Source: Fischerella thermalis PCC 7521 (GTDB lineage: Bacteria > Cyanobacteriota > Cyanobacteriia > Cyanobacteriales > Nostocaceae). Taken from it: a stretch of 45,708 bases of DNA. The DNA lies in contig NZ_AJLL01000027.1 of NCBI RefSeq assembly GCF_000317225.1, positions 1 to 45,708 of the forward strand. The letters are read 5' to 3'. Each line of letters opens with the position of its first letter. Within the stretch, counting starts at the first letter, position 1. The notes beneath the pieces were generated by a model. The model made no database searches. It saw only the letters and a list, made by a program, of their open reading frames with translations, and was not told where the DNA came from. A program made the translations under genes and the position numbers. Of this stretch, positions 87-30,500 are shown one piece after another.

Positions 87-3000
87 GTGGTGGTAAATGT
101 GGTTAAGCAGGTTAAACAAGTCATTTTTGAAATAGGAGAGGGTTCTTTTGAGAGGGGATTTCCTGTCAAAGTGAGAATTGGTCAAGCTGGTAAGCCTCAT
201 ACTGCTGAGATTATCGGGAGATTACCACCTGCACCAGAATTTCCAACAATATACACTACATGGCAATCTATTTATGAAAAATTGCCAGCAAATTGGTTGA
301 TTATTATTCCTAAAAATCAGATTACAAACTTTTCTAGTAAAGATGCTTGTAATCAAGCTGCTCAAGCATTTCAAGATAGTTTTAATGCTTGGTTAAATCA
401 AGCGCCTGTTTTAGAAATAGAGCGACAATTATCAAGACAAATTGGAAATTCTGAAGATGTTCGGTTTATTTTACAGACTCAAGATTCATTACTGCGGAGA
501 TTACCTTGGCATTTGTGGGGTTTTTTCTCTACTAGCCATCCCCAAGCAGAAATAGTCATTAGTTCAGAATACGAACCATCAACAAAGCAACTGCAAATAC
601 CAGTCAAAGTTTTGGCAATTTTAGGTAGTAACCAGGAGATTAATCTCGAGCAAGATTTATATTTTCTCAAAAATTTACCAGGTGCAAAAGTTAAAGCATT
701 AATAGAACCTACACGCCGTCAACTAATTGAAAATTTGAGAACTCAACCTTGGGATATTTTATTTTTTGCCGGACATAGTATCAGTAAAGAGGGTGACTGT
801 TGGGGAGAAATTCAAATTAATGCCGACGAGAGTTATTTATCATTACGAAATTTACGTTACTCTCTTAGACATGCAGTCAGACAGGGATTAAAATTGGCAA
901 TTTTTAACTCTTGTGATGGATTGGGATTAGCACGCAATTTAGCTGATTTACGCATTCCTTACACAATAGTGATGCGAGAACCTGTACCTGATATTATTGC
1001 TCAGGAGTTTTTGAAATATTTTCTGACTGCATTTACTAGTGGTGAATCTTTATATGCGTCTGTAAATCAAGCACGGGAACGCCTATATGAGGAGTGGGAA
1101 AGGGACTACCCTTGTGCTTCTTGGCTACCTGTAATTTTTCAGAATCCAGCCGCAACGGAACTAAAATATCCCCGAATTATGAACTGGAAAGAAAAGGCTT
1201 ACCGAGCAGTTATTGTCACAGTTTCGCTGGGGTGTATTGGTGCAGTTTTGTGGCGTGGAGTTGATGACATTAATTTCCGTAATCGGTTTAGTGATGGCAA
1301 TAAAATTTTAGTGAAAACAGTTTCGACTGACTATAAAAAGCAAGGAGTGCAAGCATTATCATGGAAAAATTATAATCAAGCAGTTAGTAAATTCAAACTT
1401 TCTTTAAAACAAAAATCTAATGATCCGGAATCATTAATATATTTGAATAATGCCAAGATCGGCAATCAAGAAAAATTGACGATCGCAGTTGCAGTTCCCA
1501 TTGGTACGAATCCTGATGTCGCCCAGGAAATTTTGCGGGGTGTAGCACAAGCTCAAGATGAAATTAACCGTAGAGGTGGTATTGATGGTAAGTTACTTAA
1601 AGTTGAAATAGCCAACGATGATAACAATCCTACTATTGCTCAAAGGGTTGCTCACAGATTTGTTCAGAGTCAAAATATCTTAGCAGTAATCGGACATAAC
1701 AGTAGTGATGCTAGCGTCCCTGCTGCTAATATTTATCAAGCAGGAAAATTGGTGATGATTTCACCAACTAGTACTTCTCCATTGGTAACTAACCCCGAAA
1801 ACCGATCTGCTGGGAGTTATATCTACAGAACTGTAATTAGAAATGATGTCATTGCTGAAACTTTAGCCGAGTATGCAAAAAAAGAAGGCAAAACTCGCGT
1901 TGCTATCTGTCGTGATTCTCAAGCAAAAGATCAGTCTTATGAACCAGCAATAGCTTCAGCACTGAGTAAAAATGATATTCAGTTAATTGATATTCACTGC
2001 GATTTAGCAGCAAAGAATTTTCAGCCAGAATTTGCCATTGAACGTGCGCTCAAAGTGCAAGCAAATAGTATATTTCTCAATCCCCATGTTGACAGAATTG
2101 ACAAAGCTATAGAGATTGCTAAAGCTAATCAAGGCAAATTAATGCTTTTTGGCAGTCACAGTATGCAAACTCAAAAAACTCTTAAGGCTGGTAAAACTGT
2201 CAAAGGTTTAGTGATGGCTGTTTCTTGGCATACCGACGCTTCTGCTAATAAAAACTTTGTCAAAGATGCCTACAAACTTTGGAATGATCCAAATTCTATC
2301 ACTTGGCGCACAGCAAATGCCTACGATGCTACAAATGCGATCGCTCAAGCCCTAATCCAAAAAGATAACACCAGAGAAGGTATCCAACAAGCTTTATCTG
2401 GTGATTTTGCTCTAGAAGGTGCTACGGGAACTATACAATTTTCACCTTGGGGCGATCGCATCGGTACGGCGATGTTAGTGGAAGTCAAACCTGATGTACA
2501 AAATCCTAATAACTATAGTTTTGTACTGAAAGACTCTGTTTTTAATCGTATTAGCTTGGGAGACAAAATTTTATTTCAAGATACAAACCCCAGTAGCGAG
2601 AAAAAAGCAGGTATACAAGCTTTTGCAACAGAGAAATATGAGATGGCGATCGCATATCTTCAAAAATCTCTGCAAAATATGCCCAATGATCCCGAAACAC
2701 GCATATACTTACAAAATGCCCTTGCTGCTCGTCATGGCAAAGTTTTAAAAATTGCCGTCAGTGTCCCGATTGGTAGTAATCCCAATGTTGCCAGAGAAAT
2801 ACTTCAAGGTGTAGCTCAAGCTCAAGATGAAGTTAATAATAAAGGTGGTATTCAAGGATATTTGTTGCAGATAGAAATAGCAAATGACGATAACAATCCT
2901 GATATTGCCAGAAAAATTGCTAACTATTTTGTCAGCCACAAGCAAATTCTAGCAGTTATTGCTCATAATGCTTCCGATGCTTCTGTAGCAGCCTGTGAAA

Positions 3001-3809
3001 TTTATCAAAAAGGGAAATTAGTCAATATTTCTCCTACTAGCTTTTCGCTAAAATTATCGGGGTGTGGTTCCTATGTATTTCGCACTGCTCCCAATCTGCG
3101 TTTTTTGGCTGATTCTGTTTCTCACTATGCGATCGATGTTGCTGGTACAAAAAACTTGGCTATTTGTGTAGATGAAAAAGCTATAGATAATCAATCTTTT
3201 CGCGATGAATTTGCTTCTGCTACCATTGCCGGTGGTGGAAATATTGTGAATATTAGCTGTGATTTTTCTGCACCAGATTTTGATCCTCATAAAATTATTG
3301 TCGATGCAATTAGCAATGGTGCTGATGGCTTATTTTTAGCTCCCCATATTGATAGAATTAGTAAAGCTTTAGATTTAGCTAAAGCCAATCAAGGCAGACT
3401 CAGATTATTTGCCAGTACTTCACTATATACCTTACAAACTCTCCAGCAAGGAAAAGCTGATATTAATGGCTTAGTGTTGGCTGTTCCTTGGGAAGCGAGA
3501 AGAAATTTTGCAAGTGAATTTGCTAAGAACTCCCAGAAACTTTGGAATAGTTTAGTAACTTGGCGTTCTGCTACAAGTTATGATGCAACTATAGCTATAG
3601 TTAATGGTTTACAGCAAAGTAAAACTCGTAGTGGACTGCAAAAAGTCTTGCGTAATCCTAAATTTTCTGCTAATGGTGTAACTGGAAAAATTCAGTTTTT
3701 ACAATCAGGCGATCGCCCTATTAAAAATAAAAATGATATTGTCTTGGTGAAAATTCAACCAAGTCGTACATTTGCAAATCAATATGAATTTTTTCCTTTA
3801 TATCCTTAA
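87..3809 (+). CDS. CHAT-domain protein with one TM helix and two TPR/periplasmic-binding modules
   Basis: The N-terminal ~360 residues look like a CHAT (caspase-like) domain. The probable dyad is His230 in FFAGHS and Cys276 in FNSCDG. One hydrophobic helix lies at about 372-391, preceded by basic residues (MNWKEKAYR), which predicts a cytoplasmic N-terminus. Two homologous modules follow, each a TPR-like helical pair (about 413-456 and 838-880) and a LivK-type type I periplasmic binding domain (about 463-830 and 884-1240). Both binding domains share the PIGxNPxVAxEIL and ANDDNNPxIA stretches, so they arose by internal duplication. An in-frame stop lies just upstream, so the start must be GTG at 87, 90 or 99. 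I infer a membrane sensor coupling extracytoplasmic ligand binding to a cytoplasmic protease; substrate and ligand are unknown. A 10-base unit (tggacacaga) is repeated at positions 1-20 upstream. Confidence 0.85.
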   Translation: MVVNVVKQVKQVIFEIGEGSFERGFPVKVRIGQAGKPHTAEIIGRLPPAPEFPTIYTTWQSIYEKLPANWLIIIPKNQITNFSSKDACNQAAQAFQDSFNAWLNQAPVLEIERQLSRQIGNSEDVRFILQTQDSLLRRLPWHLWGFFSTSHPQAEIVISSEYEPSTKQLQIPVKVLAILGSNQEINLEQDLYFLKNLPGAKVKALIEPTRRQLIENLRTQPWDILFFAGHSISKEGDCWGEIQINADESYLSLRNLRYSLRHAVRQGLKLAIFNSCDGLGLARNLADLRIPYTIVMREPVPDIIAQEFLKYFLTAFTSGESLYASVNQARERLYEEWERDYPCASWLPVIFQNPAATELKYPRIMNWKEKAYRAVIVTVSLGCIGAVLWRGVDDINFRNRFSDGNKILVKTVSTDYKKQGVQALSWKNYNQAVSKFKLSLKQKSNDPESLIYLNNAKIGNQEKLTIAVAVPIGTNPDVAQEILRGVAQAQDEINRRGGIDGKLLKVEIANDDNNPTIAQRVAHRFVQSQNILAVIGHNSSDASVPAANIYQAGKLVMISPTSTSPLVTNPENRSAGSYIYRTVIRNDVIAETLAEYAKKEGKTRVAICRDSQAKDQSYEPAIASALSKNDIQLIDIHCDLAAKNFQPEFAIERALKVQANSIFLNPHVDRIDKAIEIAKANQGKLMLFGSHSMQTQKTLKAGKTVKGLVMAVSWHTDASANKNFVKDAYKLWNDPNSITWRTANAYDATNAIAQALIQKDNTREGIQQALSGDFALEGATGTIQFSPWGDRIGTAMLVEVKPDVQNPNNYSFVLKDSVFNRISLGDKILFQDTNPSSEKKAGIQAFATEKYEMAIAYLQKSLQNMPNDPETRIYLQNALAARHGKVLKIAVSVPIGSNPNVAREILQGVAQAQDEVNNKGGIQGYLLQIEIANDDNNPDIARKIANYFVSHKQILAVIAHNASDASVAACEIYQKGKLVNISPTSFSLKLSGCGSYVFRTAPNLRFLADSVSHYAIDVAGTKNLAICVDEKAIDNQSFRDEFASATIAGGGNIVNISCDFSAPDFDPHKIIVDAISNGADGLFLAPHIDRISKALDLAKANQGRLRLFASTSLYTLQTLQQGKADINGLVLAVPWEARRNFASEFAKNSQKLWNSLVTWRSATSYDATIAIVNGLQQSKTRSGLQKVLRNPKFSANGVTGKIQFLQSGDRPIKNKNDIVLVKIQPSRTFANQYEFFPLYP

Positions 3810-20977: not shown

Positions 20978-22354
20978 ATGACAGGCAAATACGCAAGACA
21001 AAATGCATTTCTGCGGCTAGTGTCTGGTAATGGGGCAGCTTATGGGTCTGATTTTCGCTATTCGCTGTTTCCCACTAAAGAAGTAGTAATTGGACGTGAC
21101 CCTAGCTGTCAAGTTGTCTTAGATGCCATGATTTACCGCATGGTATCTCGTCGTCATGCGGTGGTTCGTCCTCTTCCTCCCTCCCCAGATAGCGAATTAG
21201 GTTGGGTAATTTGTGATTTGAACAGTGCTAATGGTACTTATCTCAATGGACAACGCTTGCAAGGTTGTCAGCAATTGGTAAATGGCGATCGCATTACTCT
21301 TGGCTATGATGGCCCGGAATTGTTGTTTGAGTACGAATTTAACCACCAATCTACTGTAATATCTTCCATTGCCGAAGCCACATCCCTACCACCGGCTGGC
21401 TACCAAAACACAAACATACCAGATTCTTCGGTTAGTTTTACACAACTGTTTCCCATTATTTCTACTGGTAAAGATTTAACTCGTAAAGCCTATCTTATCC
21501 CTGGCATTCTTACGGTCGTCTTTGTAGTACTGATGTTTGCCACTGTCGGCGATCCCCAAGCAAATCAAGTAGTTGTGGGGACTTACATAGCTTTTGCCGC
21601 CTATTACTTTATTTACCAGTTGTGTGGAAAACGCAAGCCTTGGTGGGTGTTGATGGGTTCAGGATTGACAACAATGTTGATCTTGCTGAGTCCTCTCACA
21701 GATTTTTTTATTTTCTTCTTTCGTGAAGTTCTACCTGGTAGTTTGCCTGCAAATCAGCAGGAATCCGTTACCTTTACAGAATTACTCATTCGGTACTTTT
21801 TCGGTGCTGGTTTGATGGAAGAATTACTCAAAGCCCTACCGATACTGGGAGCTTATGCGATCGCTAGAGGTTTATCATCACCTTGGCGGGAACGTGTCGG
21901 TGTCTGGGAACCTCTTGATGGTATTCTTCTAGGAACCGCTTCTGCTGTAGGATTTACTCTGTTAGAGACATTGGGGCAGTATGTACCGCAAATTATTCAA
22001 AGTGTGACTTTCCAGGCTGGGGATGGTGCTGGTCAACTAGCAGGATTGCAACTGCTGATTCCCCGCATCTTGGGTTCTGTGGCAGGACATATGGCTTACA
22101 GTGGCTATCTGGGCTATTTCATTGGTTTAGCTGTTCTCAAGCCCAGGAAAAGTTGGCAGATTTTGCTCGTTGGCTATTTAACTGCCGCAGGACTTCATGC
22201 TTTATGGAATGCTACGGGAACCATCAACGGCTTATTGTTAGTGGTTGTCGGTGTATTATCTTACGCTTTTTTGATGGCTGCTATTCTCAAAGCCAGGGCG
22301 CTATCACCAACAAGAGAGCAAAATTTTGCTACCCGCTTTCTTGGCCCGAAGTAA
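20978..22354 (+). CDS. FHA domain fused to PrsW-type intramembrane protease
   Basis: Residues 14-130 are a complete FHA domain, a phosphothreonine reader: VVIGRDPSCQVVL, VSRRHAVV, LNSANGTYLNGQRL and NGDRITLG. From residue ~165 the protein is polytopic with ~8 hydrophobic helices. It carries PrsW-family motifs: LMEELLKALPILGAYA (the EExxK-type motif), DGILLGTASAVGFTLLETLG, GHMAYSGYLGYFIG and GLHALWNATG. PrsW proteins are membrane proteases; in Bacillus PrsW cleaves the anti-sigma factor RsiW. The FHA reader suggests that phosphorylation recruits the substrate or controls activity. It is convergent with the operon of the CHAT-FHA and PP2C genes. Confidence 0.87.
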   Translation: MTGKYARQNAFLRLVSGNGAAYGSDFRYSLFPTKEVVIGRDPSCQVVLDAMIYRMVSRRHAVVRPLPPSPDSELGWVICDLNSANGTYLNGQRLQGCQQLVNGDRITLGYDGPELLFEYEFNHQSTVISSIAEATSLPPAGYQNTNIPDSSVSFTQLFPIISTGKDLTRKAYLIPGILTVVFVVLMFATVGDPQANQVVVGTYIAFAAYYFIYQLCGKRKPWWVLMGSGLTTMLILLSPLTDFFIFFFREVLPGSLPANQQESVTFTELLIRYFFGAGLMEELLKALPILGAYAIARGLSSPWRERVGVWEPLDGILLGTASAVGFTLLETLGQYVPQIIQSVTFQAGDGAGQLAGLQLLIPRILGSVAGHMAYSGYLGYFIGLAVLKPRKSWQILLVGYLTAAGLHALWNATGTINGLLLVVVGVLSYAFLMAAILKARALSPTREQNFATRFLGPK

Positions 22355-22396
22355 TGCCGTTTCTCTAAAATTCTCTAAAAGCACTTGGCGTCACCG

Positions 22397-22438
22397 GGCG
22401 TGGAAGGTTTGTATCAAGAATTTTTTGAAATAGTATAA
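22397..22438. repeat. 42-bp dispersed repeat, copy 1
   Basis: This stretch begins GGCGTGGAAGGTTTGTATCA and matches 32653-32694 in 36 of 42 positions. Both copies lie between convergent genes, just beyond their 3' ends. Function is unknown. Confidence 0.6.
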
Positions 22439-22456
22439 ACTTTACTAGATTGTAAA

Positions 22457-22482
22457 TAGGGGTACACAGCTGTGTACCCCTA
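22457..22482. terminator. Perfect 26-base palindrome between convergent genes
   Basis: Bases 22457-22469 (TAGGGGTACACAG) are the exact reverse complement of 22470-22482. AT-rich sequence flanks both sides (TGTAAA, AAATTTTATAT). It lies between the stops of the FHA-PrsW gene and the 214-residue minus-strand gene, so a bidirectional terminator is the simplest reading. The rest of the 358-bp gap holds no gene that I trust. Confidence 0.5.
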
Positions 22483-22712
22483 AAATTTTATATATTCCAG
22501 ACTCCACCTCATTGAAAACGAACATATTTTTTCCCTCTTTAGGTAGATGACGCAGGTCTTGCAATTTGATAAGTTTCGGATACGATAAATGCTCTATAAA
22601 TTGAGAGAACAAATTAGAACATTCCACAAAGTTTGCAAGACGAGCGCCATGCAAATATAAGGTTGCTTGCAAATAGAAAGATTGAAGCAGGCTAAAAGAA
22701 AATAGATTTTTT

Positions 22713-23357
22713 TTAAGCTTCCCCCTGAAAGCTGTTGAGTTGTTGTAAAGCATAGTAAGCGATCGCCATACTAACTCTTGCTTGTTCAATTTCAGATAGA
22801 TTTTTCCATTCGTGTTCATCAATTCGGTTAAGAACAGTTTCTGCGGTCTTTTGTGATTCGCTACTCCGCATCGCATAAGCATAAGGACGGGCCAAAACCA
22901 ATAAATCTTCAGCTCCCCAGCCAGGTAATACAGACTGAACACATTCCACTAGTTTATCTGCCATTAATTGTTGGGTAGTACAAATATCAGCAGCTTTTTG
23001 AGCGATCGCCTTTAACCATTGTTTTGGTACGCCTGTAGCCAAGCGGCTTTGTAAAGTTTCTTGAAGTTGAATTACTATGTTACTATCTGTAGTATGATTG
23101 TAGGGTAAAGCATGAGAAGTCCATAACGCTTCTAGATGATTGTAAAAATCTTCAGAGCGTGTTGTGAGTTCTTCTTCTAGGACATCTTGCAGCAAAAACT
23201 GCTCTTCCAAGTGATGAAAATATTCTTCTGATTGCTCATCAGCTGGATTCCAAGGATAAGTGCCATCCTCTGGTTGCAGTAGTGCTTCTAAAAATTCCAG
23301 TTCGATTTGAGAGGGGATTGTTTGGAGTTTTTCTAAACCGTTGGTTTGTCTATTCAT
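22713..23357 (-). CDS. Conserved-looking helical protein of unknown function
   Basis: I do not recognise this 214-residue protein. It is acidic and almost wholly helical in appearance, with aromatic-rich helices such as EEYFHHLEEQFLLQDVLEEE and SEDFYNHLEALW. The second half contains WLKAIAQKAADI, LVECVQSVLPGWGAEDLLVL and ARVSMAIAYYALQQL. No signal peptide or membrane helix is visible. GGGAG eight bases before ATG supports the start. It is downstream of the CHAT-FHA and PP2C genes on the same strand, so it may be a partner or substrate of that signalling cluster. That role is inference from position. Confidence 0.65.
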   Translation of the reverse strand: MNRQTNGLEKLQTIPSQIELEFLEALLQPEDGTYPWNPADEQSEEYFHHLEEQFLLQDVLEEELTTRSEDFYNHLEALWTSHALPYNHTTDSNIVIQLQETLQSRLATGVPKQWLKAIAQKAADICTTQQLMADKLVECVQSVLPGWGAEDLLVLARPYAYAMRSSESQKTAETVLNRIDEHEWKNLSEIEQARVSMAIAYYALQQLNSFQGEA

Positions 23358-23587
23358 TTTGTCGTCTCCCGATTAATTATTTTGTGGTATTTACAGCTAC
23401 ACCAGCTTCCATCTAATTTCCGCACACAAAGTTTAATTCTGCTGGTTTTTCTGTAAGCTTTTTGCTGAGATTGAAAAATAGAAACAAACACTGGAGTCAA
23501 AAGGCTAGCAGCTAGGGAAAATAAGAAGTTGTAAGGATTTTCTTTACCTGATTGTGGACAATTACTTTTAGTATGTAAGTTGTCCAA
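23354..23587 (-). CDS. Doubtful small membrane-protein frame
   Basis: A 77-codon frame fills most of the gap between the CHAT-FHA gene and the 214-residue gene and overlaps the start of the latter by four bases. It has one hydrophobic stretch, FLFSLAASLLTPVFVSIF, and a basic Cys-containing tail (KLCVRKLDGSWCSCKYHK). Its only start is TTG at 23587 without a clear ribosome binding site, and the frame contains no methionine. It may be translated and coupled to the next gene, or may be chance. The 342-bp gap holds nothing else. Confidence 0.25.
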   Translation of the reverse strand: MDNLHTKSNCPQSGKENPYNFLFSLAASLLTPVFVSIFQSQQKAYRKTSRIKLCVRKLDGSWCSCKYHKIINRETTK

Positions 23588-23699
23588 AATGGTAGATTCG
23601 GCTACAAATGAACTGACTGATAATTACTTGATAGTACAAGCTCCCAGATTTCAGAAGTCCAACTAATCCAAAATCTAAAATCCTTTGTGACTCCTCAGT

Positions 23700-25283
23700 T
23701 TAGGAACTCTCAATCATAAACTCCCAAGGATGACTATTTCTACTACCAAACTTTAACTGCATTCCTGGTTCCAGCAGAACTTCCTGGTGGTGGATTTGTT
23801 GCCAATCACTATTACTAGAGCTGGAAATCCAAGTTGTACCGTAGGTAGAGTTTTCTCTTAGGTAATATGTTCGCACTGGATTAGCGCCTGTGAAAGTATT
23901 CCGACACAAGATTTCAGCTTGGCGTCGAGAAACAGAGGGCTGTGGAATTACAATGTCATTATCTGTAGTACGACCGATGCGAGTAACTCCGGTTTTCAGT
24001 TTATAAGTGATCCCAGCCGATCGCAAGCAAGCCATAGGCAGCAGAGAAGCCATACCAGGTATGGAAGTTTCTGGTAATTCCGTATTACCCTCTTCGTAAC
24101 TCCGAATCAGTTCGCCATCAAATTGTGGATGTAGATAGAGAACAGGTAATGTCCAAGGTAGTTGGTTAAATCTATAAACTGCCAATAGATTTTGTCTTGC
24201 TTCTGCTACAGCATGGTCGATTGGCAGTCGCCTTCGCAAAGCTTGGACAAAGGTATGAATAAAAGTCAGACTTTCCTCGTCAGCAATTTGGTCACGCATT
24301 CCTAAAGCAGCAGGAACGCCATTGCGAATCAGCACCTCGATCAAACTGCTGCAAGGTATCGCCTGACCGTTAACAGCAGCAGGTTGCGCTCCCCAACAGG
24401 CATTTAAAACTGCTAATTTCACTCCCGTATGGCTGAGAACTTGTGCCAATTCCATACCATTGAGACGCATCCCAGGACGCAAATGCAAATACCCACCATC
24501 GGGGCCTCGGGAGCCATGACCTCCATAGAATAAAATATTGTAATTTCTGGTTTCTAGTTCTTGGATCAACTGCTGTGGGGTTGGTTGCACTAGTGTCTTG
24601 ACTGTACAAGGTGCGTATCCTTGGCTATGACTTCCCACTATAGAGCCATTAGAAAGAGTTTGCTCTAAAATAGCAGCTTCTCTATCCAGTTGGAGATTAT
24701 TTTCATCCTCTCCCAGGACTAGCAGAATATTTAATGATTGATCAGGTCGCAAACGCAGTGGTAGCGGTTCAACCTCATTAGTAGTACGACTAAATAAAAT
24801 GTTTTGAGACAGTGACATTGCCGACTGACCAACTTCGCGCTGCATAATTTCCCACGGCAAAGCAGTTAAATTTGGGTCACGAATTTCTAGTCGAAAGCGC
24901 AAACGTGTATTTTGACCAGCGGCAATACCACTGCTGTATTCCAGACTGCCCAAGATTGGGCCATCGAACAACCAACGCCAGAGGCTAATTCCCAAATGTT
25001 GCATCAAATGGCTAGTGTAACTCATCTGACCAGAAGTTGGTGAAAGCAACTCATTTGGGAGTGGGTTTGATGTTGTGGGTATGGCTGTGGGGGAAATATC
25101 TATGCAACTGTCAGGAGCAAACATCTCCTGCCACTTTCGCCAAACTTGAGTTAACTCCGCTGACCAGACGCAATCATGGATATCACGAGCGCCAGGGTAG
25201 GGAGCTTCAAACACACAAATAGCGAAATGGTCGGGACCAGCATTGACGAGACGCTTAACCGCCAAGTTCAGGGATGGATTCAT
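23700..25283 (-). CDS. CHAT-domain protease-like protein with C-terminal FHA domain
   Basis: Residues ~1-400 form a CHAT caspase-like domain. The likely dyad is His256 in FYGGHGSRG and Cys296 in LNACWGAQ. The QLIQELETRNYNILFYGG and RNGVPAALGMRDQIADEESL stretches are typical. The last ~100 residues form an FHA domain (VTRIGRTTDNDIVI, SVSRRQAEILC, NSTYGTTWI). In it the usual SRRH histidine is Gln and the NGT motif is changed to YGT. ATG at 25283 is used; a TTG three codons earlier is the alternative. No membrane helix is seen. It lies between a PP2C phosphatase gene (138 bases upstream) and small unknown genes, which suggests a protease placed under phosphothreonine control. Confidence 0.87.
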   Translation of the reverse strand: MNPSLNLAVKRLVNAGPDHFAICVFEAPYPGARDIHDCVWSAELTQVWRKWQEMFAPDSCIDISPTAIPTTSNPLPNELLSPTSGQMSYTSHLMQHLGISLWRWLFDGPILGSLEYSSGIAAGQNTRLRFRLEIRDPNLTALPWEIMQREVGQSAMSLSQNILFSRTTNEVEPLPLRLRPDQSLNILLVLGEDENNLQLDREAAILEQTLSNGSIVGSHSQGYAPCTVKTLVQPTPQQLIQELETRNYNILFYGGHGSRGPDGGYLHLRPGMRLNGMELAQVLSHTGVKLAVLNACWGAQPAAVNGQAIPCSSLIEVLIRNGVPAALGMRDQIADEESLTFIHTFVQALRRRLPIDHAVAEARQNLLAVYRFNQLPWTLPVLYLHPQFDGELIRSYEEGNTELPETSIPGMASLLPMACLRSAGITYKLKTGVTRIGRTTDNDIVIPQPSVSRRQAEILCRNTFTGANPVRTYYLRENSTYGTTWISSSSNSDWQQIHHQEVLLEPGMQLKFGSRNSHPWEFMIESS

Positions 25284-25421
25284 TACATACAAACATCAAA
25301 ATCAAAATTTTTCAATAACGCAGCTACAAAAGACAACAAAAATAATTGCCTTTTGTTGAATTTTTTCTTTTAACTTTTACCTGTATTATTTCAGGTTTCT
25401 ACTAGTTTATCGAGTTTTTGA

Positions 25422-27761
25422 CTATTCAGTGTGACGACGGGGTTTAGTCTGTTTAGAACCTGATTCTCGTTGATTCGATGGTGCAAAGGTACGATAAGGC
25501 TGTGACTGACATTGAGCTATAACTTCCTGTGAGGGTGTAGAGATATCCTGTGCCTGTGATAATTTTTGGTATTCGGATAATTGTAGTTTGTACACTTCGC
25601 CTGCTTTCACCGCAGGATTTCTCTGTATAGGAGCTAACGGGTCAGATAGGTTTGTAGGTGAAGTGACACCATCTCCAACAGAGCATATCCGCACATAGAG
25701 TAATTGATCTGGATTTTGCTGTTGTGCTGTGATTACTTGACTATTGAGAATTCTCAAAACACTGCCAGCAGGTGCGATCGCTTGTTGTGGAGGTGATGTA
25801 TTTGTCAATAGTTGTATCTTAGTTGCTGTCTCAATCAGATCAAGGCGATCGCTTGGTGCAGGTGATACAATAGTTGGTTTCAAGTCAACAGAGGGAGTAT
25901 TATGAATTGTGGGAAGAACAGAATCGTTTTTTTTGTTATTGAGCATCCACAAAGTCCCAAATAAACCAGCACCTAACACTAATCCTACAAGGATAATCAA
26001 CTGTAGTGGCACAAAATTCGGTCGCTTACTTGGCTGGGTATCTGGAATGACTTGGGTTTTTTGATGATAACCACCTTCTGTTTTAGGTTGTAGGGTTTTG
26101 GCTGGGTAAACACTACTAACAGTTGCCAGATCAGCTATGTCAGACAAAACAAATTGTGGTTTTGTCTGTGGTTCTGAGTACTTAAATTGGTAGTGTACTA
26201 GGGCAATGGTGACATTGTCATGTCCATTTTGGGTGTTAGCAATCTCTAGTAACTTCTCTACCACACTCATTGCGTCAGTTTTACCGTGGATTAACGGTAA
26301 AATTTCTGTCTCCCAGTGCTGTTCCACACGGTCAAAGTCACTCAAACCATCGGAACACAGTAGAAAAATACAATCTTCGTCAAGAATAAAGCGTTCTGCT
26401 GAAGGATGTAATGAACTGCTAGGACTCATTCCTAAAGCTTGTACCAAGGAACCAGAAGCACCTTGTTGGATGGCATCTCGATAAATAGCATAGCCCAATC
26501 GTACTTCACGTGAAGCGACATCATCATCAAGGGTTACTTGATAGCAACCATGGCGCGTAATCCAGTAGGCACGACTATCACCAACATGAGCAATATACAT
26601 TTCATGGGCGACAGGCAAAGCCATGACCAAGGTTGTTCCCATCCGCTGGCGTCCTTGGCGACTCTCGCTGTCGTTGCGCTGGCTAATTTTGTCGTTAGCA
26701 ACAGCTGCTGCTCGTTGTAAATCTTCTAGTAGGGAATTTGGGTCAATGTGATCGTAAGGAACTTTAGTTAGTTCTTGTACCTGCTGTTGAATGGTTTCAA
26801 TCGCCAGATTTGAGGCGACATTACCACCTTCGTGTCCGCCGATTCCATCACAAACTATTGCCAAAGCGCTGGAGTGGGGTGGTTTGCTGATAATGCTACC
26901 ACTAGGTGGATAGCAGGCGTCTTCGTTGCGTTGACGACTTGGACCTGTGTCACTGACTGTAGCAATTGTGATGGCGGGAGATTGGGAACGCCCTAGTGTT
27001 GAGAGTCCTTTATCTAAAACTTTCACTAGTTGCTCAGCTGTGTGGATTTCTCCTTTGATCAAGGCATAACAAATTTCTTTGACAAATTCTGCGATCGCTG
27101 GTTTGGCTGTGCTTACCAACTGTTGCCAAAACTCTCCTAAATGGGCCAAACTCGCTACAGAATCCTCTTCATAACGCAATTCCAGTAGCCGGACTAAGGA
27201 GCCTTCTACCCTTAATAGTTGGGGATTAAGTAAGCTTGAGGCGACACCTTCACTAGCCAGAGGTTGCCACAATTGTGCTATCTGCCACAACCAATTAAGT
27301 TGTCGCATTGATGTAACTTCACTCCACACAGTTGTTAACTCACCACATAGCTGTACATCGAATGAAGTGGCGCTATATATAATTTTTAGCGGCGGTTTTT
27401 CTAAAAGTAATATGTCTTGCCCTTGACTGCCATTTGATAAAGAAACTACACCGTATACCTGTGGTACATGTAAGCGGTAGGGAATTAATCTTAAATAAGG
27501 TCTGATTGATTGTAATTTTTCTGGATCTGGCGTTTGGGGTAAATAACCAGGCTTAGTATCTAAAAGAATATATTTATCTATGACTAGATAGCGAGTGGCT
27601 AATATCTCTCCAGGATTACCCAAATTCAGACCATCTGCCACAGCCCAGAGGAAGCGTTTGGGTAAAGATGTAGAGCATCGCTGGCAGAAGCTGTGGGTTA
27701 TAGAGTTGGGAGCCTGACAAAGTTCGTTTGGGCAATAGAGGTTAGCCGCATCATTTTCCAT
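25422..27761 (-). CDS. Membrane PP2C protein phosphatase with zinc-ribbon prefix and kinase-like remnant
   Basis: The N-terminus has a four-cysteine ribbon (YCPNELCQAPN, FCQRCSTSL) like the 4-Cys prefix of cyanobacterial Ser/Thr kinases. Residues ~50-250 retain a kinase-like order (EILATRYLVIDKYILLDTKP, QIAQLWQPLASEGVASSLLN, then LVRLLEL) but lack HRD, DFG and the glycine loop, so this part is probably a pseudokinase. Residues ~265-530 form the PP2C domain: DTGPSRQRNEDACY, VCDGIGGHEGG (Asp305), AHVGDSRAYWI, LLCSDGLSDF and GHDNVTIALVHY. All metal-binding aspartates appear intact. A TM helix (LQLIILVGLVLGAGLFGTLW) near 600 leads to an extracytoplasmic tail. It heads the run with CHAT-FHA and probably removes phosphate from proteins read by the nearby FHA domains. 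Confidence 0.87.
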   Translation of the reverse strand: MENDAANLYCPNELCQAPNSITHSFCQRCSTSLPKRFLWAVADGLNLGNPGEILATRYLVIDKYILLDTKPGYLPQTPDPEKLQSIRPYLRLIPYRLHVPQVYGVVSLSNGSQGQDILLLEKPPLKIIYSATSFDVQLCGELTTVWSEVTSMRQLNWLWQIAQLWQPLASEGVASSLLNPQLLRVEGSLVRLLELRYEEDSVASLAHLGEFWQQLVSTAKPAIAEFVKEICYALIKGEIHTAEQLVKVLDKGLSTLGRSQSPAITIATVSDTGPSRQRNEDACYPPSGSIISKPPHSSALAIVCDGIGGHEGGNVASNLAIETIQQQVQELTKVPYDHIDPNSLLEDLQRAAAVANDKISQRNDSESRQGRQRMGTTLVMALPVAHEMYIAHVGDSRAYWITRHGCYQVTLDDDVASREVRLGYAIYRDAIQQGASGSLVQALGMSPSSSLHPSAERFILDEDCIFLLCSDGLSDFDRVEQHWETEILPLIHGKTDAMSVVEKLLEIANTQNGHDNVTIALVHYQFKYSEPQTKPQFVLSDIADLATVSSVYPAKTLQPKTEGGYHQKTQVIPDTQPSKRPNFVPLQLIILVGLVLGAGLFGTLWMLNNKKNDSVLPTIHNTPSVDLKPTIVSPAPSDRLDLIETATKIQLLTNTSPPQQAIAPAGSVLRILNSQVITAQQQNPDQLLYVRICSVGDGVTSPTNLSDPLAPIQRNPAVKAGEVYKLQLSEYQKLSQAQDISTPSQEVIAQCQSQPYRTFAPSNQRESGSKQTKPRRHTE

Positions 27762-28649: not shown

Positions 28650-30008
28650 CTATTCAACATTAAATAAATTTAAAGGTTTTTCTAAGCGTAGGAGAATAAA
28701 TTCGGTATTGTCAACTTGTCTAGGAGTGCGACCAAAACTATCAGCATAGTTATTATCGTTGATTACAAGCAGGGTTGTTTTATCTACAGGCAATACGCTT
28801 TCTATAGTCACGAATGGAAATGTGAAGCTGCCTGCCTTGGTGCTACTGCCTCCTATGCGATTGGGATCTGAGATATTTAATAAATCTACCAATAATTCTT
28901 TATCTACAAAACCCTGAGCATCAATTTGTTTAAGATTTATTTTATAAATACGCTTGAATTGAGCAGGATATTTAAAGGCGGAATTGTGAGGATCTCCTTG
29001 CTTGTGATCACGTTCTATCACAATATATTCATGATCATTAATTGCTGTAAGTTCACCAATTGCATGGCTTTGGTGTTCTAGCTGATAAAAGAAAATTTGA
29101 CCTGTGTATTGTTTGGTCGCTAAGTCAAATTCATGAATTAACAGGCGCTGCTTTAAAGAGTCATGCTTTAAAGATCCTTCTAACAAAGCATAAAGTTTGG
29201 TTCCACTACTGTTAAGCGCCAACCCTTCAAAACCTCTAGAACCACCCAGGTTTGCAGCATCAATTCTTGCTTGCTCATCAGGTAAATTCATCAAATCTGG
29301 GTGGTCAGGAGATTTTACAAAATTTAACTTACCAATACCTAAAAAGTTGGGTAAAGGAATAGGAGCATCTAGTAGTTCGCCATTTTGTCCTATATGCAGT
29401 AAAAAAGGGCCAAATTCGTCTCCCAACCAGTAGCTACCATCACTCAAGCGGCGGAAGGATTCTATATCAAAATCTCCCCCTGTTAATAAACGATTTGTTC
29501 TGATTTCTTGGCTAACAGAGATAGTGCTACCTGGATAAAATGATTTTTCTGCAACAATAGGAAAGTTAACTTTACGATTTTTATCATTTAGTTCCAAAAA
29601 GCTTTGACGACTAAACCAAGATAGTCTTTCTCCGCTTTGTAGATTCACAGGAAAAACTTTACCTGTAGTAAAATCAGGTTCTATCGCATAAATACGTAAT
29701 CTATAATCAGGCGAATTGCCCTTACTGCCAAAACCATTATCTGAAATGACTAGATAAGTGCCTGCTTTTGGTCCTTTAACAACACCGGAAAAACCCTGTA
29801 CAGGTTGGGTATGAACAAAAGGAGTTGTACGATTTGTCTTTTTAAATTGAGCTGTTGTCGAACCAGCAGCAAACGTATCCGCACTCAAGACAGCACGCCC
29901 AACTAGTTCTGCTGCTTGAATTGGAGACAAGAGCGTAAACAGTAAAATAACAAGAGGCTGTGGCAATAGCCAAGCAGCCAGTTGTTTGAGAAAGTAGCGG
30001 TAAAGCAT
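28650..30008 (-). CDS. Phytase-like esterase (esterase-like activity of phytase family), secreted
   Basis: Residues 1-32 form a signal peptide ending QAAELVG. The mature protein has the beta-propeller pattern of this family: VQGFSGVVKGPKAGTYLVIS, DNGFGSKGNSPDYRLRIYAI, DIESFRRLSDGSYWLGDEFG, RGFEGLALNSSGTKLYALLE and YIVIERDHKQGDPH. Length (452 residues) is typical. The family includes extracellular phosphoesterases and phytase-like enzymes, but the substrate here is not known. It ends close to the 28.3-kb pseudogene candidate and follows ndhM on the same strand with a 108-base gap. Confidence 0.83.
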   Translation of the reverse strand: MLYRYFLKQLAAWLLPQPLVILLFTLLSPIQAAELVGRAVLSADTFAAGSTTAQFKKTNRTTPFVHTQPVQGFSGVVKGPKAGTYLVISDNGFGSKGNSPDYRLRIYAIEPDFTTGKVFPVNLQSGERLSWFSRQSFLELNDKNRKVNFPIVAEKSFYPGSTISVSQEIRTNRLLTGGDFDIESFRRLSDGSYWLGDEFGPFLLHIGQNGELLDAPIPLPNFLGIGKLNFVKSPDHPDLMNLPDEQARIDAANLGGSRGFEGLALNSSGTKLYALLEGSLKHDSLKQRLLIHEFDLATKQYTGQIFFYQLEHQSHAIGELTAINDHEYIVIERDHKQGDPHNSAFKYPAQFKRIYKINLKQIDAQGFVDKELLVDLLNISDPNRIGGSSTKAGSFTFPFVTIESVLPVDKTTLLVINDNNYADSFGRTPRQVDNTEFILLRLEKPLNLFNVE

Positions 30009-30116: not shown

Positions 30117-30500
30117 TTATGACTTCATTAACCCGTAACTATCTTGATCTTCAGTTGCAACTTGGGGAAGTCCCATGCTGTAATTGTTGACGCGAGCAGA
30201 GAGATTGTAACTGATTTCGCCTTTGTGCAGGAGCGATCGCAGAAAATGCTCTAGGTCTGACCCGATGCGGCGTAAATTGTAATCAGTCAGGTCTGCACCA
30301 CTAGATGCTTCTACTAGTTCATCAAACTTGCGATAAACCTTTTGCAGAGCATCTTCATTCCAGGTAAATTCGTTGTCTGGGTCAACATCCAACGTTAAGA
30401 CCTGATTGCTGGGAACTAGTTCGCCATCCCGGTCAATTTCTGCCGCAAAAATACGGATATGCCGGGTTGTGGACTTAAGCAGCATTGGGTTATCGTCCAT
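30117..30500 (-). CDS. ndhM: NAD(P)H-quinone oxidoreductase subunit M
   Basis: The protein matches NdhM in almost every conserved stretch: [68 protein letters not shown] and NYSMGLPQV. NdhM is a cyanobacterial/plastid-specific subunit on the cytoplasmic face of the thylakoid NDH-1 complex, which carries cyclic electron flow, respiration and CO2 uptake. Length is 127 residues. ATG at 30500 gives the Nostoc-like MDDNPMLLK start; ATG at 30485 is the alternative. No other ndh gene is in the window, as expected for dispersed cyanobacterial ndh genes. Confidence 0.92.

Follow-up and report, generated by a model that had tools for sequence, protein, structure and literature searches.

Proteases with a CHAT domain often have their substrates encoded near the protease gene, as has been shown for Csx30 (PMC9729208), the neighbour-encoded partner cleaved by the TPR-CHAT protease Csx29 of the Craspase system. 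In cyanobacteria, HetF acts on a dedicated regulator, PatU3, which it can cleave (PMC12288457). The conserved active site of HetF is required for its function, the protein localises to midcell and to cell junctions, and it carries transmembrane (TM) and TPR regions downstream of the CHAT domain (PMC8406250). Here we describe a related locus in a window of 45,708 nucleotides (the whole stretch of DNA that was analysed) from the cyanobacterium Fischerella thermalis PCC 7521, whose genome measures 5.44 Mb. It codes for a HetF-like protease with a C-terminal FHA domain (CHAT-FHA), a small helical protein (which we call HEL), a membrane phosphatase of the PP2C family and, on the facing strand, a fusion of FHA and PrsW domains (FHA-PrsW). 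The pairing of CHAT-FHA with HEL is nearly obligate, and this near-perfect co-occurrence ties the uncharacterised HEL family to a HetF-like protease. The reading that we favour, tentatively and with a little less than even confidence, is that PP2C, CHAT-FHA and HEL make up an operon for phosphorylation-regulated proteolysis, in which HEL would be the client, control would be exerted by a phosphatase of the PrpJ type and FHA-PrsW would be a looser associate. A sequence-only reading had previously described an FHA-PrsW gene facing same-strand genes for a PP2C, a CHAT-FHA protein and a 214-residue helical protein, and all four open reading frames and their Pfam domains are as it had them.

CHAT-FHA is a protein of 530 residues that scores above the Pfam cut-offs for both CHAT (77.5) and FHA (43.2). 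The residues that we treat as catalytic or binding in the CHAT, PrsW, PP2C and FHA domains are those generally associated with these families. In CHAT domains they are a His and a Cys; His259 and Cys299 are invariant in 27 of 27 aligned proteins. HetF is the nearest named relative of this CHAT domain: the protein obtains 158.6 bits against the NCBIfam HetF model NF045509, below the equivalog cut-off of 1200 bits, while a CHAT-FHA profile retrieves 21 HetF-type loci at 180-238 bits (the genome's own HetF being counted twice). Only two of these 21 were checked against the HetF model, namely the own HetF of 835 residues, which scores 1424 bits, and a second HetF-type protein from genome G047, which scores 879.5 bits and thus falls under the cut-off. 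The source genome has 12 CHAT and 17 FHA matches, and of its ten other CHAT places only two were matched by the profile at an E-value of 0.001 (34 and 47 bits). In the HetF-type matches listed, the CHAT domains are 34-41% identical to that of CHAT-FHA over an alignment that spans most of the CHAT region. However, where HetF has TM and TPR regions after CHAT, CHAT-FHA instead has the FHA domain, with no TPR match (Pfam, E 0.1) and no hydrophobic segment above a hydropathy of 1.6; its profile retrieved only FHA proteins from the PDB at E 0.01. The comparison with Craspase is similar: both have a CHAT protease and a neighbour-encoded partner, but no gRAMP or CRISPR gene is seen in the block and CHAT-FHA has FHA where Csx29 has TPR.

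The Arg and Ser of FHA domains contact phosphothreonine, and the binding motifs are GR, SxxH and NG. G440, R441 and S455 are invariant in the 27 aligned CHAT-FHA proteins, and the Arg and Ser are invariant in the FHA-PrsW family too. In the reading that we favour, CHAT-FHA would be a soluble Cys-His protease of the HetF type, recruited through its FHA domain to a target or scaffold that bears phosphothreonine. Among the matches listed, the closest named relatives (92-93% identity) come from Fischerella, Westiellopsis and Pelatocladus. The window also holds a second CHAT gene (87-3809, + strand), coding for a protein of 1240 residues with its CHAT match at nucleotide positions 678-1124 of the contig (C26), after which two repeats resembling substrate-binding proteins can be made out by eye.

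Relatives of each protein were sought in 148 genomes of the order. CHAT-FHA was assigned to 101 of the 105 matching genomes, the other four (G005, G023, G047 and G080) being set aside as HetF-like on account of best matches with E-values above 1e-50. CHAT-FHA and HEL are found together in 97 genomes, CHAT-FHA only in four, HEL only in ten and neither in 37. Three of the four genomes with CHAT-FHA only (G044, G123 and G127) have only partial CHAT-FHA matches, and the genome of the fourth (G030) is 61% complete. Across the phylum (214 genomes), full-length CHAT-FHA occurs in 53 genomes, each of which also encodes HEL, while HEL occurs in 56 in total; these 53 were kept out of 57, with G080, G172, G182 and G247 excluded for having one partial match each of about 175-210 bits. 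Outside the order, the two genes are adjacent in four of the five genomes with both. We also compared the distribution of HEL with that of HetR, a marker of filamentous lineages, which lies above the cut-off in 86 genomes (and under it in G031) and accompanies HEL in 78 of the 148. A strict link between the two was rejected: HEL is found without HetR in 29 of 107 genomes and HetR without HEL in 8 of 86. Hence, the set is not confined to the filamentous lineages marked by HetR.

HEL itself has no match among Pfam families at E 0.1 or in NCBIfam. The 19 Pfam families retrieved at E 0.1 from 34 HEL sequences each appeared in one member only and were set aside, as were the four PDB matches of its profile (best E 0.031), which were to myoglobin, designed bundles and an unrelated protein. 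The AlphaFold model is all-helical (mean predicted local distance difference test, pLDDT, 71.6; predicted template modelling score 0.49), with low confidence at residues 1-13 and 83-90, the latter having pLDDT values under 50. The majority-residue frequency in the 34 sequences is 0.56 for residues 15-79, 0.17 for residues 80-97, 0.63 for residues 98-164 and 0.66 for residues 182-206. This points to a conserved part on either side of a hypervariable linker (residues 80-97), whose length ranges from 0 to 32 residues across the same sequences. By analogy with the cleavage of PatU3 by HetF and of the neighbour-encoded Csx30 by the TPR-CHAT protease, HEL may be a dedicated partner of CHAT-FHA, most likely its client, which would be cut in the variable linker between its two helical parts. 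Alternatively, HEL could be a regulator or inhibitor that keeps CHAT-FHA inactive, with the consequence that genomes never retain the protease alone. The one-way dependence is what this would predict, HEL standing alone in 10 of 107 genomes while phylum-wide all 53 full-length CHAT-FHA proteins have a HEL; however, a substrate would give the same one-way pattern, and the hypervariable linker suits a cut site or a hinge. Moreover, six genomes of one family (f18) keep PP2C, HEL and PrsW together where CHAT-FHA gave no match, and in these HEL is under purifying selection, with ratios of nonsynonymous to synonymous substitution of 0.13-0.50 in 15 pairs (the pair at 0.50 being very close, with one partial sequence). 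Such retention and constraint speak against this alternative, which we regard as unlikely.

Conservation of the gene order beyond this strain had been set beforehand as a test of the earlier proposal, and the neighbourhood search bears it out: all four relatives lie within 15 kilobases (kb) of CHAT-FHA in 21 of the 64 genomes with coordinates for all four, and in 8 of 33 families. CHAT-FHA and HEL are within 3 kb of each other in 59 of the 97 genomes having both (linked in 17 of 24 families), and PrsW and HEL in 43 of 72. The corresponding counts are 30 of 68 genomes for CHAT-FHA and PrsW (linkage in 12 of 21 families) and at least 44 of 97 for CHAT-FHA and PP2C (13 of 26 families); the positions of PP2C were taken for 123 of 144 genomes, mostly from the best match, and its linkage counts are thus a lower bound. 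There is a strict syntax in pairs within 15 kb: PP2C lies upstream of CHAT-FHA on the same strand in 45 of 45, HEL downstream on the same strand in 55 of 59 and PrsW downstream on the opposite strand in 33 of 34. In four genomes HEL and CHAT-FHA are reversed in order yet adjacent, and in three fetched loci they remain adjacent without any other tracked neighbour. The same-strand gaps are small (medians of 169 and 177 base pairs), and PP2C, CHAT-FHA and HEL probably form an operon. Among the best 80 of 500 CHAT-FHA relatives, which are hence close kin, CHAT-FHA is accompanied by PP2C in 76, HEL in 79 and PrsW in 73, several of the misses being in short loci at contig ends.

In FHA-PrsW, both the FHA (65.4 bits) and the PrsW-protease (129.5 bits) matches are above the Pfam cut-offs, while the protein obtains 20.4 bits against the PrsW equivalog NF033739, below its cut-off of 225 bits. 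EExxK, Glu and His motifs are the hallmarks of PrsW intramembrane proteases. All of them are present here, with E281, E282, K285, E330, H371, H407 and N411 invariant in 23 of 23 aligned proteins, as are G39, R40, S57, H60, N85 and G86 of the FHA domain. The same architecture of PrsW fused to FHA has been noted before and proposed to represent signalling peptidases, in a passage that names no partner genes (PMC3482391). In our locus FHA-PrsW might be another protease guided by phosphorylation, linked more loosely and optionally to the others. A second FHA-PrsW, 61% identical to the first, is encoded elsewhere in the same genome (contig C11, 12125-13477), with a kinase-family match (C11, 10825-11577) some 550 bases away.

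The PP2C phosphatase scores above the cut-off for Pfam PP2C_2 (45.8), and D281, D305, D471 and D515 of its metal-binding Asp motifs are invariant in 26 of 26 aligned proteins; in its structural model (mean pLDDT 64.4) the catalytic fold matches PstP and tPphA. In 22 of the 26, Pfam recognises the N-terminal four-Cys ribbon as DZR (E 0.1), and the window protein, though lacking a DZR entry of its own, retains the four invariant Cys. The order of helices and strands in residues 60-260 had suggested a pseudokinase, which profiles did not support: in hhalign comparisons with 28 kinases of the same genome, the region beyond the Cys ribbon reached a probability of at most 2.8%, near that of the reversed control. 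We propose that this membrane phosphatase, a probable orthologue of PrpJ, strips phosphates and would thereby set the recruitment of the protease.

A recurrent juxtamembrane motif in PP2C raises a different prospect, namely that FHA-PrsW docks on the phosphothreonine of this KTxxL/I motif and cuts the single TM segment (N-in, C-out), releasing the phosphatase. RsiW, also an N-in, C-out protein, offers a parallel for cleavage by PrsW, and FHA domains follow a pT+3 rule. The motif [KR]TxxL/I precedes the TM in 71 of 101 block copies of PP2C (many of them close relatives) and occurs within 30 residues before it in none of 20 control PP2Cs from outside the block (13 of them the best copies of genomes that lack CHAT-FHA, the other seven being second copies). 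For a table with one PP2C per genome, 10 of 139 sequences were dropped for want of a recognised end motif and the motif was widened to [KR]TxxL/I/V; of the remaining 129, 48 carry it, 47 of them in HEL genomes, and 85 have a tail of 80 or more residues past the TM. Of these 85 long-tailed proteins, 41 have the motif no more than 35 residues ahead of the TM, against a mean of 5.1 and a maximum of 12 in shuffled sequences. The long tail is associated with PrsW (64 of 85, against 12 of the 44 others), but is tied more strongly to HEL (80 of 85); the motif is also found without PrsW (6 of 48), and 7 of the 44 short-tailed PP2Cs carry it (shuffled mean 2.9, maximum 8). These associations, and the Fisher tests on them, ignore phylogenetic kinship, and release of PP2C by FHA-PrsW appears very unlikely to us. 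The most elaborate scheme, a relay of two proteases, is highly improbable: here the balance of a kinase and PrpJ would set phosphothreonines for both FHA domains, CHAT-FHA would cut HEL and so switch a function of the membrane or septum, and FHA-PrsW would dock at KTxxL/I and free PrpJ from the membrane by cleaving its TM. If true, it would constitute a second proteolytic pathway of the HetF-PatU3 type, gated by phosphorylation. Separately, the second-copy PP2Cs outside the block share a different recurring SELSEASKALLY-like stretch between the PP2C domain and the TM.

In the gene names of Anabaena PCC 7120, r and l denote the strand. Compared by name, alr1728-all1729-all1730-all1731 match PrsW, HEL, CHAT-FHA and PP2C in order and strand, and the window genes probably map to them, with PP2C as the PrpJ orthologue. 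all1731 is prpJ, whose mutant lacks the major heterocyst glycolipid and does not fix N2 under oxic conditions (PMC6161253); a 2007 paper on PrpJ, by its title as given in citing papers, places this PP2C on the plasma membrane. PrpJ thus resembles the window PP2C in family, in membrane location by that title, and in the expected order and strand; the passages on PrpJ considered here draw no link to a protease. The gene alr1728 counts as a Fox gene of unknown function; two FurA sites are predicted for it, and it rises when FurA is overexpressed (PMC4005646). The locus would therefore be a probable molecular setting for two heterocyst phenotypes, those of prpJ and of the Fox gene alr1728, and the probable role of the set in heterocyst formers is in the maturation of the envelope. 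If this is right, it poses a direct question: does a phosphorylation-reading CHAT protease cut HEL under the control of PrpJ? Two other candidate connections were dropped: all1729 is listed and then removed as a filament core gene in the relevant part of PMC2821919, where a tree suggests a different family, and HltA, described as a GAF-PP2C of group II (PMC9430166), is not a counterpart. Among the papers listed from the open-licence literature, beyond which most subscription papers lie, we found no description of CHAT-FHA with HEL; those listed for the locus yielded no mention of all1730, and those listed for the topic did not contain the phrase 'chat domain'. No locus named as PCC 7120 is included in the best 80 of 500 CHAT-FHA relatives.

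Several observations weigh against an operon for phosphorylation-regulated proteolysis. The Anabaena mapping is by order and strand, not by sequence. In CHAT-FHA, the His of the FHA SxxH motif is present in 26 of 27 proteins and replaced by Gln458 in that of the window, and the Asn of the NG motif is missing from most of the family. The block yielded no kinase, and the Pkinase-family matches listed for the genome (45, of which 40 are above the cut-off) include none on the window contig. The fold search with HEL gave no PDB match at E <= 0.001, and its constraint where CHAT-FHA was lost implies a role without CHAT-FHA, not only that of a protease client. We further examined 40 loci hand-picked for diversity, 38 with CHAT-FHA and two chosen for lacking it; HEL is not near CHAT-FHA in seven of the 38. 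PrsW occurs without CHAT-FHA in 14 of 82 PrsW genomes, and CHAT-FHA without PrsW in 33 of 101. The synteny, moreover, includes housekeeping genes, with leuD and ndhM upstream and def downstream (ndhM is confirmed by Pfam, and the names leuD and def come from inspection of their sequences). Of the 40 loci, 21 contain ndhM and 17 def, not far under the 24 with PrsW and the 26 with PP2C, and HEL is found in 34. The linkage of PP2C and PrsW alone hence proves little and may reflect an inherited gene order, an old synteny of leuD, ndhM, PP2C, CHAT-FHA, HEL, PrsW and def in which only CHAT-FHA and HEL are functional partners. The near-universal presence of the PP2C family in the order (144 of 148 genomes) and the 47 of 148 genomes with PrsW or CHAT-FHA one without the other fit this explanation. 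Against it, six fetched loci have PrsW beside HEL and CHAT-FHA without a linked PP2C or ndhM, a weak argument as five of them keep def; and the juxtamembrane motif and long tail of PP2C are enriched in HEL genomes, though phylogeny may explain this. We consider inherited order somewhat unlikely.

Returning to the operon reading, these results also bear on the phospho-signalling protease module that had been proposed from the sequence. Its domains stand, the catalytic residues are intact and the FHA Arg and Ser are invariant, and the idea holds well for CHAT-FHA with HEL; it is plausible for PP2C and weak for PrsW. Although PrsW recurs at the locus, its separations from CHAT-FHA mean that the independence named at the outset as refuting its membership is partly observed, and it cannot be regarded as a bound member. 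The suggested role in cell death is not borne out, nor is membership of a known anti-phage defence system: the PADLOC defence library gave only a weak match in the block, to PP2C (E 0.0016), and work on the probable Anabaena counterparts deals with heterocysts and filaments.

Table 1. Features of the locus, in positions of the window
Feature	Positions	Strand	Basis and remarks
FHA-PrsW	20978-22354	+	Pfam domains; FHA 21083-21304, PrsW intramembrane metalloprotease domain 21635-22285
11-pair palindromic terminator-like stem	22457-22482		Between the convergent PrsW and HEL genes
HEL, 214-residue all-helical protein	22713-23357	-	Open reading frame; matches no known family
HEL hypervariable linker, residues 80-97	23067-23120	-	34-sequence alignment; candidate hinge or cut site
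CHAT-FHA	23700-25283	-	HetF-like CHAT domain 24174-24992, C-terminal FHA 23745-23984
PP2C phosphatase, probable PrpJ orthologue	25422-27761	-	N-terminal four-Cys ribbon, region of about 60-260, PP2C domain, one TM, C-terminal part past the membrane
PP2C single TM segment, residues 583-601	25959-26015	-	Mean hydropathy 2.39
PP2C juxtamembrane K-T-x-x-I motif, residues 568-572	26046-26060	-	Candidate phosphothreonine docking site
ndhM	30117-30500	-	Pfam NdhM, 180 bits; housekeeping neighbour in the conserved synteny, outside the proposed function

The start of CHAT-FHA in the table differs from that of the listed open reading frame (23700-25292), which begins with a TTG at 25292; the ATG three codons inside is the probable start, and homologues begin there. 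As for the stem between the convergent genes, the region holds four terminator-like sites against 5.2 expected from shuffles, and only its position and length speak for a terminator. Finally, a phytase-like gene (28650-30008, - strand; Pfam PF13449) lies between ndhM and PP2C. Its relatives are present in five of the best 80 of 500 and in none of the 40 order-wide loci, which suggests that it may be a local insertion.

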